Shown one piece after another: positions 1,523 through 6,274 of a stretch of DNA of 64,000 nucleotides. Below the pieces are notes generated by a model. It was not told where the DNA came from. It searched no databases and worked only from the letters and a program-made list of their open reading frames with translations. The translations under genes and the position numbers were made by a program. Origin of the DNA: Candidatus Nitrosopumilus sediminis (lineage in GTDB: Archaea > Thermoproteota > Nitrososphaeria > Nitrososphaerales > Nitrosopumilaceae); contig NC_018656.1 of the NCBI RefSeq assembly GCF_000299395.1, forward strand, positions 1,054,001 to 1,118,000, given 5' to 3'. The stretch's first letter is position 1, and each line of letters begins with the position of its first letter.

Positions 1523-1978
1523 ATGATTGAAGAAAAACTTGAATTGCTAGGAATTAAACTTCCAAACCCTCCAACACCAGCAGGATCATACATTCCAGCA
1601 GTAAAGACTGGAAATTTGCTATTCATCTCAGGTCAAATCCCAATGGAGGAAGGAAAAGTACTATTCACAGGAAAAGTTACAGACGACAATCTAGAAACTG
1701 CTCAAAAATCGGCAAGAATGTGTGCAATCAATCTTTTAGCACAAATCAAAAGGGAATTAGGCAGTTTGGATAAAGTAACAAGAATTGTAAGACTATCAGG
1801 ATTTGTAAATTCAGATGCAGAGTTTTACCAACATCCCAAAGTAATCAATCCGGCATCAGATTTGTTCTTTGAAGTATTTGGAGATAAAGGAAAACATTCG
1901 CGAATTGCAGTGGGTGTTGCATGTTTACCGCTAAATTCAATGACAGAAATTGATGCAATTGTGGAATTTTCAGAATGA
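1523..1978 (+). CDS. RidA/YjgF/UK114-family protein
   Basis: The 151 residues show the Rid fold: a PAGSYIPAV segment near residue 21, then FISGQIPMEEGK (about 34-45), the helix with NLLAQIKRELGSLD, and a C-terminal strand with ACLPLNSMTEIDAIVEF. Family members deaminate reactive imine/enamine intermediates or act as YjgF-like regulators. This sequence belongs to the longer group of about 150 residues, in which the catalytic arginine of canonical RidA is often absent; I do not see the usual R-CP motif near residue 105, where R-I-A-V-G-V-A-C occurs instead. It sits alone between unrelated genes. The family is secure, the substrate unknown. Confidence 0.88.
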   Translation: MIEEKLELLGIKLPNPPTPAGSYIPAVKTGNLLFISGQIPMEEGKVLFTGKVTDDNLETAQKSARMCAINLLAQIKRELGSLDKVTRIVRLSGFVNSDAEFYQHPKVINPASDLFFEVFGDKGKHSRIAVGVACLPLNSMTEIDAIVEFSE

Positions 1979-3320: not shown

Positions 3321-4463
3321 TTATTTGATTTGCTTATTTAATTCCGTAATGAATTTTTTTATTTTGGGTTTAGGAATTACGGCACCACATGCCTTGTCAT
3401 GACCTCCACCAGAACCGCCAAGACTAGTAGCCAAGGTGTTGACAATTTTCCCAAGATGGACTTTGCAATCTTTAGAGCCACGAACAGATACAGCATAGAT
3501 TCCATGATCAACTCTTTCTTTGTATGCAACGCCGACGTCCTTTCCAGACAATCCCATTACAAAATTCACAGCACCACTAGCACCAGCATCTAAAATTTCC
3601 ATATAACCAAGATTTTTCATAGTTTTCATTCCTTGTTTTACTTTGGCAATCATCTGAGATAGTTTCTCAACTTGAATTTGAGCAAATTCAAAAGTGTTAG
3701 GTATTGCATGAGGGAACTTGGATTCAGCCAACTCCTCAACAAGGTACAATAGATAATCAGGTTCTTTTTGATGCCCCACAATATTGTAAGTAAGAACAGT
3801 CGCACTAATCAATGCAAATTGTCGGTCATAGATTTGCAGTAATTTTGCACCTATTGGTCTAGTTTCCATGTAGTCAGTAATTGCAGCACATGCTGCAACA
3901 AATGATGCATGATCATTTAATTTTGATTTGAATGCAGTGTAAGCTAAAACAGCAGTACATTCATTGATGTCATGAATCACCTTTACTTTTATTTTTTTTA
4001 ATGCCTTTACAACATCAGGGTCTATATCATGATGATCAATGTAAGTTACTGAGACTTTGTTTTTTCTCAGAGTTGTTAAAATATCAATAAATTCATCCTG
4101 GGTTTTTTTACTAAGACCCAAATCACAAATAAATAATGACTTTAATTTTTCATCTAAAACCACTTGATTTAGTGCTTCCATTTGTCCAGGATAGTCAACC
4201 AGTATTGCATCACCGCCAAATGCCTGTCTGATAATTGCAGCAGAACTAATACCATCACAATCTTCTTTGTGAGAAATACAAATCACTTTAGTTCTTTGTG
4301 GTTTTGTAGTTTTTTTAGATGCAGATTTCTTTGTTACTTTTTTTGCAACAGTTTTCTTAACAGGTTTTTTTGCTGCTGTTTTTTTGGCAACTTTTTTTGC
4401 TACTTTTTTAGTTGCTTTTTTCTTAACAGTGGTGGTAGATTTTTTAGTTTTAGATACTGCCAA
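3321..4463 (-). CDS. DHH-family phosphoesterase with histone-H1-like Lys/Ala tail
   Basis: I place the start at TTG 4463 (MAVSKTKKS) rather than the ATG at 4490, because a TTTAAAT box at about 4489-4495 is 26-30 nt upstream and would give a leaderless mRNA beginning at the TTG. Residues 1-57 are an almost pure Lys/Ala/Thr/Val tail (repeats of AKK and VAKK) resembling the histone H1 C-terminal domain. The catalytic part follows: SHKEDCDGIS (about 64-73), CDLGLS (about 113), DHHDID (about 145) and a C-terminal DHHA1-type GGSGGGHDKACG loop. DHH proteins cleave phosphodiesters such as nanoRNA, cyclic dinucleotides or single-stranded DNA. The tail suggests nucleic-acid tethering. The catalytic family is secure; the exact substrate is not. 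Confidence 0.88.
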   Translation of the reverse strand: MAVSKTKKSTTTVKKKATKKVAKKVAKKTAAKKPVKKTVAKKVTKKSASKKTTKPQRTKVICISHKEDCDGISSAAIIRQAFGGDAILVDYPGQMEALNQVVLDEKLKSLFICDLGLSKKTQDEFIDILTTLRKNKVSVTYIDHHDIDPDVVKALKKIKVKVIHDINECTAVLAYTAFKSKLNDHASFVAACAAITDYMETRPIGAKLLQIYDRQFALISATVLTYNIVGHQKEPDYLLYLVEELAESKFPHAIPNTFEFAQIQVEKLSQMIAKVKQGMKTMKNLGYMEILDAGASGAVNFVMGLSGKDVGVAYKERVDHGIYAVSVRGSKDCKVHLGKIVNTLATSLGGSGGGHDKACGAVIPKPKIKKFITELNKQIK

Positions 4464-4507
4464 TATAGATAGAAAATTTGCAACCCTCATTTAAATGAAG
4501 AAAGTGA

Positions 4508-4699
4508 TCAGGATTTATGAGACTGTTTTTTAATATTTTTGTGAATCAAAGATCTAGAATCAAGGTACACATCAAAAAACGATACTCCTTCAAGCTGAGT
4601 CTGATGATCAATCTCCTGAATTTTTTTCAGTTCATCAGATGTCGCATTCAATACCATGTCATCTAATTTTTGCAAATCTTTACGCTCTTTAGGAGTCAA
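4508..4699 (-). CDS. Small conserved-type protein, paralogue of 5985-6191
   Basis: The 63 residues form a helical N-terminus (MTPKERKDLQKLDDMVLNA) followed by HQTQLEGVSFFDVYLDSR and a basic end. The block aligns by eye with DQAQKKGITFYDMVFEVL in the protein encoded on the other side of citrate synthase, so the two are probable paralogues. The start is TTG, and a cataaatg box about 22-30 nt upstream supports a leaderless message. It precedes the DHH gene on the same strand with a short gap and could be co-transcribed with it. Function is unknown. Confidence 0.6.
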   Translation of the reverse strand: MTPKERKDLQKLDDMVLNATSDELKKIQEIDHQTQLEGVSFFDVYLDSRSLIHKNIKKQSHKS

Positions 4700-5984: not shown

Positions 5985-6191
5985 TTAATTTCTAGTACTT
6001 AACCAGTCTTTGGCTTTAGAATTTACATCGTGCTTGTATAGAACTTCAAAAACCATATCATAAAATGTGATACCTTTTTTCTGAGCCTGATCATCTAGCC
6101 ATTTAATTCCATCAGCTAATTCAGGATCATATTCTGAGAATTCAACTAATTCATCAACCATTTTCGAGAAGAAGGCGTGAGATTCAAGCAT
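5985..6191 (-). CDS. Small conserved-type protein, paralogue of 4508-4699
   Basis: I chose ATG 6191 (MLESHAFFSKM) because it has a good AAAGGTG ribosome-binding site 8 nt upstream; the frame could extend to 6245. The 68-residue product is acidic and helical and ends with KKGITFYDMVFEVLYKHDVN, which parallels EGVSFFDVYLDSRSLIHKN of the small protein at 4508-4699. The gene ends 3 nt from the citrate synthase stop on the other strand, so the two converge. No known domain is recognised. The paired placement around citrate synthase could mean co-inheritance or simply chance. Confidence 0.6.
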   Translation of the reverse strand: MLESHAFFSKMVDELVEFSEYDPELADGIKWLDDQAQKKGITFYDMVFEVLYKHDVNSKAKDWLSTRN

Positions 6192-6274
6192 AAGTACACC
6201 TTTCAATCTTTGATCATAAGTGGGGGATTCAAAATATATTAACAAAAGACCCCTTTTTGGTTGACAATTGAACC

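Follow-up and report, generated by a model that had tools for sequence, protein, structure and literature searches.

The window, a stretch of 64,000 nucleotides, comes from the genome of the marine ammonia-oxidising archaeon Candidatus Nitrosopumilus sediminis, a single contig of 1.69 Mb, and contains a gene for a DHH enzyme with a lysine-rich N-terminal tail. The observation of this tailed enzyme, made in an initial annotation, was confirmed. The nearest named matches to its core belong to Nitrosopumilus (L033, 99%; Ca. N. salaria BD31, 97%). The locus contains the following features:

3321..4463, minus strand: whole DHH gene, 380 aa from TTG, with the stop codon at 3321-3323
4293..4463, minus strand: Lys-rich N-terminal tail of 57 aa, disordered in the AlphaFold model, with tails of the same kind in relatives
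3912..4289, minus strand: DHH domain (Pfam PF01368, residues 68-193)
within 3912..4289, minus strand: DHH motifs I (SHKEDCDG), II (CDLG), III (DHH) and IV (aspartate D140 of the core)
3324..3578, minus strand: DHHA1 domain (Pfam PF02272, residues 305-389) with GGSGGGHDKACG
4484..4495, minus strand: TATA-like box TTTAAATGAGGG, 32 to 21 nt 5' of TTG 4463, containing the unused ATG 4490
4508..4699, minus strand: small 63-aa ORF matching no Pfam family above cut-off, with its own stop before the promoter-like box of the DHH gene
1523-1978, plus strand: gene labelled by eye, which we take to be RidA, convergent with the DHH gene

The automatic ORF caller begins the DHH gene at ATG 4490. This start was ruled out because the codon sits within the conserved TTTAAATGAGGG box; a TATA-like match is present in 85/85 distinct upstream regions of aligned relatives. 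At the position of 4463, TTG or ATG is common to the relatives, and TTG 4463 is therefore the likely start and the boundary given by the initial annotation the better one. Among 95 loci with a core identity of at least 88%, the start codon was TTG in 75, ATG in 11 and GTG in 2, and 7 were unassigned; the rule applied, the last start codon before the first basic cluster, is slightly biased towards basic tails. Judged by its sequence, the box is promoter-like and may act as the promoter, in which case the DHH transcript is probably close to leaderless.

The gene neighbourhood is partly conserved. Citrate synthase usually adjoins the DHH gene (17/20 stretches), as does RidA (16/20), and the ORF at 4508..4699, located upstream in the same orientation, is often conserved beside it. 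This ORF and another small one on the minus strand (5985-6245), likewise with no Pfam family over cut-off, flank the citrate synthase gene; both are kept beside the DHH gene in many genera, and their C-termini look similar by eye. Some loci of the order's other families also have a RidA homolog near the DHH gene.

The core of the enzyme comprises the 323 residues that follow the tail. Both Pfam domains pass their cut-offs (DHH 30.0 bits vs. 28.1; DHHA1 46.4 vs. 25.9), and the core positions H8, D11, D13, D57, D86, H87, H88, D140 and H298 were invariant in 47/47 aligned orthologs, while one glycine of the GGGH motif was kept in 46/47 (motif numbering follows PMC8268124). The claim that 3321-4463 encodes a complete DHH-DHHA1 enzyme thus holds, and domains and intact motifs assign the protein by sequence to the DHH-DHHA1 superfamily. 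In this family the two-metal DHH site is described as cutting a phosphodiester held against DHHA1 (PMC8268124; also family knowledge). The AlphaFold model of the core predicted a confident two-domain fold (pLDDT 94.8, pTM 0.89). Its best structural matches were archaeal RecJ/Cdc45 proteins, with 7bih at a Z of 29.4 and an rmsd of 2.5 over 295 residues; a solved structure of similar size, the PAP phosphatase 8a8k, matched with Z 26.1 and rmsd 3.1 over 291 residues. Both matches extend over the whole length.

Curated family models did not accept the core: it scored 70.1 bits against archaeal RecJ (NF053576, cut-off 360), 28.6 bits against GAN (NF053575, cut-off 850) and 22.2 bits against NrnA/oligoribonuclease-PAP phosphatase (NF053633, cut-off 350). 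A DHHA1 search of the genome returned three proteins, namely the tailed enzyme, a protein of 473 aa that exceeds the RecJ_archaeal cut-off (486.8 bits vs. 360), and an 897-aa frame read here as alanyl-tRNA synthetase, given the C-Ala domain known from that enzyme. Two DHH enzymes are encoded in the genome, of which the tailed one is, by these profiles, not the RecJ/Cdc45-type nuclease; that nuclease has a gene of its own. The DHH motif (47/47) and His298 of GGGH (47/47), the two-domain features described for NrnB (PMC12709177), were both present, a combination that is not specific to NrnB. The reading that we favour for the core is a minimal NrnB/COG2404-like phosphodiesterase, with archaeal pAp phosphatase as the rival assignment; archaeal arCOGs were placed in the COG2404 clade by Makarova 2012 (PMC3307487). 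For the RNase_T (Orn-type) family no match was obtained in the genome at E ≤ 0.01, while 11/14 control genomes were positive, and this leaves the tailed DHH enzyme as a candidate nanoRNase.

Additional DHH proteins were observed in other genomes. One genome (G016) carries a second, divergent copy (L126, 39% identical) without a lysine tail, beside a normal ortholog. In Nitrososphaera viennensis, NVIE_010490, a 'putative phosphoesterase, DHHA1', is described as highly transcribed and as having one predicted membrane helix (PMC10030591); its orthology to the present enzyme is only possible.

The tail had been described as about 57 residues of Lys/Ala repeats resembling histone H1. Counted from TTG 4463 it does have 57 residues, including 23 K, 10 T, 8 A, 7 V, 4 S, 2 P and 1 R and no D/E; its lysine richness was borne out, but alanine is not its particular partner, and from these counts 'Lys/Thr/Ala/Val' is therefore the truer label. 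The H1-like basic character on an archaeal enzyme was confirmed as well, as a likeness of tail composition only: the four Pfam matches included no linker-histone family that would indicate the globular winged-helix domain of H1. In the full-length AlphaFold model the tail is unstructured; for residues 1-50 the block means lie at 41-47. The relatives have tails of the same kind. In the bands of 88-100% and 80-88% core identity, lysine makes up 39.5% and 36.9% of the tail residues, Asp and Glu together account for 5/3,041 and 1/981, and aromatic residues are completely missing; arginine is scarce (2.1% vs. 39.5% lysine).

Among 156 loci with a core identity of at least 80%, a set that counts some genomes twice because they were reached by different routes, every one of the 141 readable N-termini has a tail, 17-132 aa in length; the remaining 15 loci comprise 14 with Lys-rich sequence and one (L106) that is cut off. 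In the 88-100% band there are 62 unique tails, with a median length of 48 aa and a range of 17-132; the 80-88% band contributes 30, with a median of 28. Frame 0 of the 91 unique tail DNAs is stop-free by construction, and stops occur in frame 1 of 78/91 and frame 2 of 84/91; together with the tails in relatives, this ruled out a frame artefact or chance ORF. Tandem arrays were found in 78/91 tail DNAs, with a period divisible by 3 in 76/78. The interiors of the tail DNAs contain 3 acidic codons in 2,823, compared with 11.5% D/E in the window's core, and lysine is encoded by both AAA (978) and AAG (225), a mixture indicating that the tails are not one repeated DNA word. Where the cores are 95.7-98.8% identical to that of the window, the tails are only 45-71% identical, and so charge and frame are kept while the sequence is not. 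At the level of sequence it is thus confirmed that the tail is translated and conserved, and that it turns over fast as in-frame minisatellites. Tail length correlated weakly with core basicity (Spearman -0.18, n = 150, uncorrected for relatedness); as cores are not more basic where tails are longer, the core gives no sign of co-adaptation.

Orthologs were detected in 111/121 Nitrosopumilaceae genomes (84/85 among the good ones). Matches were present in 186/200 genomes at class level (E ≤ 1e-5; the weakest may be the RecJ paralog) and in 143/200 at phylum level (E ≤ 1e-10; some are RecJ-type proteins of ~480 aa), while a plasmid collection yielded no match to the core (tblastn, E up to 1e-3). 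Many of the full-length homologs are open frames of ~320-330 aa with little space for a tail. The N-terminal extension measures 3 aa in most rows of genera g6, g8, g9 and g21, ~6 to 14 aa in g17, g20 and most of g19, 20-39 aa in g4 and Nitrosarchaeum-like rows, and 17-132 aa in Nitrosopumilus and g18; on these alignments it is 3 to ~14 aa long in most Nitrosopumilaceae genera beyond Nitrosopumilus and its nearest genera. In the order's other families, represented by 16 loci (L150-L164, L169), no Lys-rich extension was found. The expectation that the tail is kept in relatives therefore holds, in frame, for all readable N-termini of Nitrosopumilus and the nearest genera, but not further out, where the long tail is absent. 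One g2 genome (L132) has a tail of about fifteen ARTKSP repeats, by its sequence a separate Arg/Lys-Ser-Pro version seen in this genome alone, while its genus-mate L113 has an extension of only 10 aa.

With a cut at 17 aa, the tail trait changed at least 7 times on a 103-row tree and 5 times on a 36-row tree; the cut is arbitrary, and such counts cannot separate gain from loss. Tail lengths of ~35 rows were assigned by eye, and no state was given to L165 and L166 (two unusual copies in G222) or to the cut-off locus L106. From its distribution, the tail is a fast-evolving feature of part of the Nitrosopumilaceae and not general to the enzyme family. As tail-less orthologs are common, it is not needed for the basic function.

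Lysine-rich stretches are not confined to this enzyme. The tail used as protein query in its own genome found only itself, which reflects a limit of the search and is not proof of uniqueness; a DNA-pattern search followed by ORF reading revealed further ones. The simpler Lys pattern stayed below its reversed control (126/152 vs. 163/182), as did the second pattern as a whole (17/45 vs. 30/51), and so only stretches afterwards read as ORFs were used. Besides the DHH enzyme, the set consists of a DUF6659-like protein, a SWIB-like protein, RadA and two uncharacterised proteins. The SWIB-like protein (L293, C1:1469000-1472500, minus; 89 aa) begins with a tail rich in Lys, Ala and Pro, after which comes a weak match to a SWIB/MDM2-like domain (17.0 bits vs. 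a cut-off of 25); by this resemblance it is possibly an archaeal chromatin protein. The DUF6659-like protein (L295, C1:500500-503300, minus; 25.1 bits, cut-off 27) ends in near-perfect Lys/Arg-rich repeats and also weakly matches chlamydial-type HC2. In the RadA recombinase (L292, C1:1266300-1269500, minus) a C-terminal KKTKKTTKKATTKK stretch is followed by an acidic PEVEATVET repeat array, and an 89-aa protein with no Pfam family over cut-off (L290, C1:763000-766500, minus) combines KKTVKKTTKK and KATKA repeats with an acidic C-terminus.

The SWIB-like query matched in 21/41 genomes of the family, mostly those with a tailed DHH enzyme. Co-occurrence of the two was strong across genera (Fisher p 1.5e-5, 36 genomes; G024, G028, G031, G039 and G040 were left out, and G017, whose match spans only query residues 9-41, mostly tail, was scored absent). 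A phylogenetic pair test yielded 2 independent pairs on supported branches and 5 on the best tree and had no power; we do not claim that the co-occurrence is independent of phylogeny.

Taken together, we propose, with a probability of roughly one half, that the enzyme is a minimal NrnB/COG2404-like phosphodiesterase acting on oligonucleotides, and that its tail is a flexible polycationic tether to long polyanions. The two-domain, two-metal enzyme would trim single-stranded oligonucleotides, most likely RNA ends and fragments of 2-5 nt, and in Nitrosopumilus and the nearest genera the tail would hold it on RNA, ssDNA or the nucleoid. Lying outside the active site, the tether would raise residence time and access to long substrates. 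Selection would act on the charge and flexibility of the tail and not on its sequence, so that tandem-repeat slippage could rebuild and lengthen it freely. Substrate class, nucleic-acid binding by the tail and an effect on processivity are what we infer from analogy; the tail would most likely tie the enzyme electrostatically to nucleic acid, in the manner of the lysine repeats of TopA and the basic extension of NrnB-A. The target is less clear: a lysine-over-arginine make-up leans towards DNA, as low-complexity regions are described as Arg-rich in RNA-binding and Lys-rich in DNA-binding proteins (PMC6821194), while the enzyme class leans towards RNA, and polyphosphate is possible by analogy with AlgP (PMC9239181). 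The initial suggestion that such tails bind nucleic acid or polyphosphate and may target the enzyme to chromatin or RNA is plausible and partly supported, with nucleic-acid binding drawn from these parallels only.

A different substrate would be 3'-phosphoadenosine 5'-phosphate (pAp), the enzyme then being a housekeeping phosphatase of sulfate assimilation that the tail only positions, e.g., near ribosomes or polyphosphate. Archaea are described as having DHH enzymes that act as pAp phosphatases (PMC8268124, PMC10322725), and since a PAP phosphatase is the nearest solved structure of comparable length and the genome encodes a PAPS reductase family protein (173.7 bits), pAp may be the substrate. 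However, the pApase of P. yayanosii is described as having a lysine at the motif VII histidine (K287 in the text, R287 in a figure legend; PMC8268124), whereas all 47 aligned orthologs have His298 here. The role of a CysQ-type enzyme could be filled by two Inositol_P family proteins that score over cut-off, none of the neighbours examined was recognised as a sulfate-assimilation gene, and a nucleic-acid tail is without obvious use for a metabolite phosphatase, which makes a pAp phosphatase rather improbable in our judgement. We also regard it as unlikely that the protein is an ssDNA exonuclease for repair or replication, a functional RecJ paralog brought to chromatin by its tail. The top structural matches to archaeal RecJ/Cdc45, the lysine-rich rather than arginine-rich tails (PMC6821194) and the similar tails on RadA and the SWIB-like protein of the same genome speak for it; yet the RecJ/Cdc45-type slot is occupied by another gene, and the core lies far under all RecJ family cut-offs and, with 323 aa, is far shorter than the matched RecJ/Cdc45 chains.

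Concerning the tail itself, its fast turnover in length and sequence, the tandem arrays in its DNA and the lack of long tails in relatives outside the group would also be expected if the tail had arisen as a side effect of repeat slippage in A-rich DNA and were nearly neutral. Such slippage alone is hard to reconcile with zero losses in 141 readable N-termini, with the near absence of acidic residues, with the variety of synonymous codons, or with a relative (L132) that carries a tail of different repeats, and we judge it very unlikely. Least probable of all, at the edge of what we would consider, is that the tail serves as a platform for polyphosphate binding or lysine modification. The precedent is AlgP, whose Lys/Pro/Ala repeat domain is described as associating with polyphosphate granules and as needed for their spacing (PMC9239181), but composition cannot tell polyphosphate from nucleic acid.

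If the tether reading is true, this would be an archaeal enzyme made processive or localised by a sequence-free tail selected for charge, and natural relatives with every tail length from 3 to ~130 residues would be at hand for dose-response experiments. The openly licensed PMC literature yielded no study on the nanoRNase step of RNA turnover in ammonia-oxidising archaea, for which the tailed enzyme is a candidate, nor any account of an archaeal DHH enzyme with a lysine tail. A wider idea, which we put forward as speculative and doubtful, is that marine ammonia-oxidising archaea re-equipped several nucleic-acid proteins (DHH enzyme, RadA, SWIB-like, DUF6659-like) with H1-like lysine tails, whereby a household nanoRNase-type enzyme would have become a nucleoid- or RNA-tethered exonuclease, with changes in the in-frame minisatellites altering tail length and thereby tuning its processivity.

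Among known enzymes, the archaeal RecJ/GAN/Cdc45-type proteins share the two-domain fold and give the strongest structural matches, but the tailed enzyme is shorter, scores far below their family cut-offs and coexists with a separate member in its genome. The archaeal DHH pAp phosphatases (PYCH_17540, MtPAPP 8a8k) resemble it in size and architecture; the descriptions compared mention no basic tail. Like the tailed enzyme, the NrnB nanoRNases (COG2404 clade; B. subtilis NrnB) combine DHH and DHHA1 with GGGH, and A. pernix APE_0124 has been called a member of the NrnB family (PMC8268124). NrnB-A is reported to need a conserved, positively charged extension at its C-terminus for long RNA but not for dinucleotides (PMC12709177). 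There the basic element is a conserved C-terminal extension, whereas here it is a disordered, low-complexity N-terminal tail, likened to it from sequence and not from activity.

The tail has its nearest counterparts in unrelated proteins. In actinobacterial TopA, as here, H1-like lysine repeats are fused to a nucleic-acid enzyme, and in Streptomyces they are described as keeping TopA on DNA and giving it processivity (PMC7398561); TopA differs in being an unrelated, bacterial enzyme with C-terminal repeats. The KPAA repeats of AlgP and PhaF likewise form an H1-like tail (PMC9239181), but these are described as polyphosphate- and nucleoid-associated and are not fused to an enzyme, as the tail of the DHH protein is.
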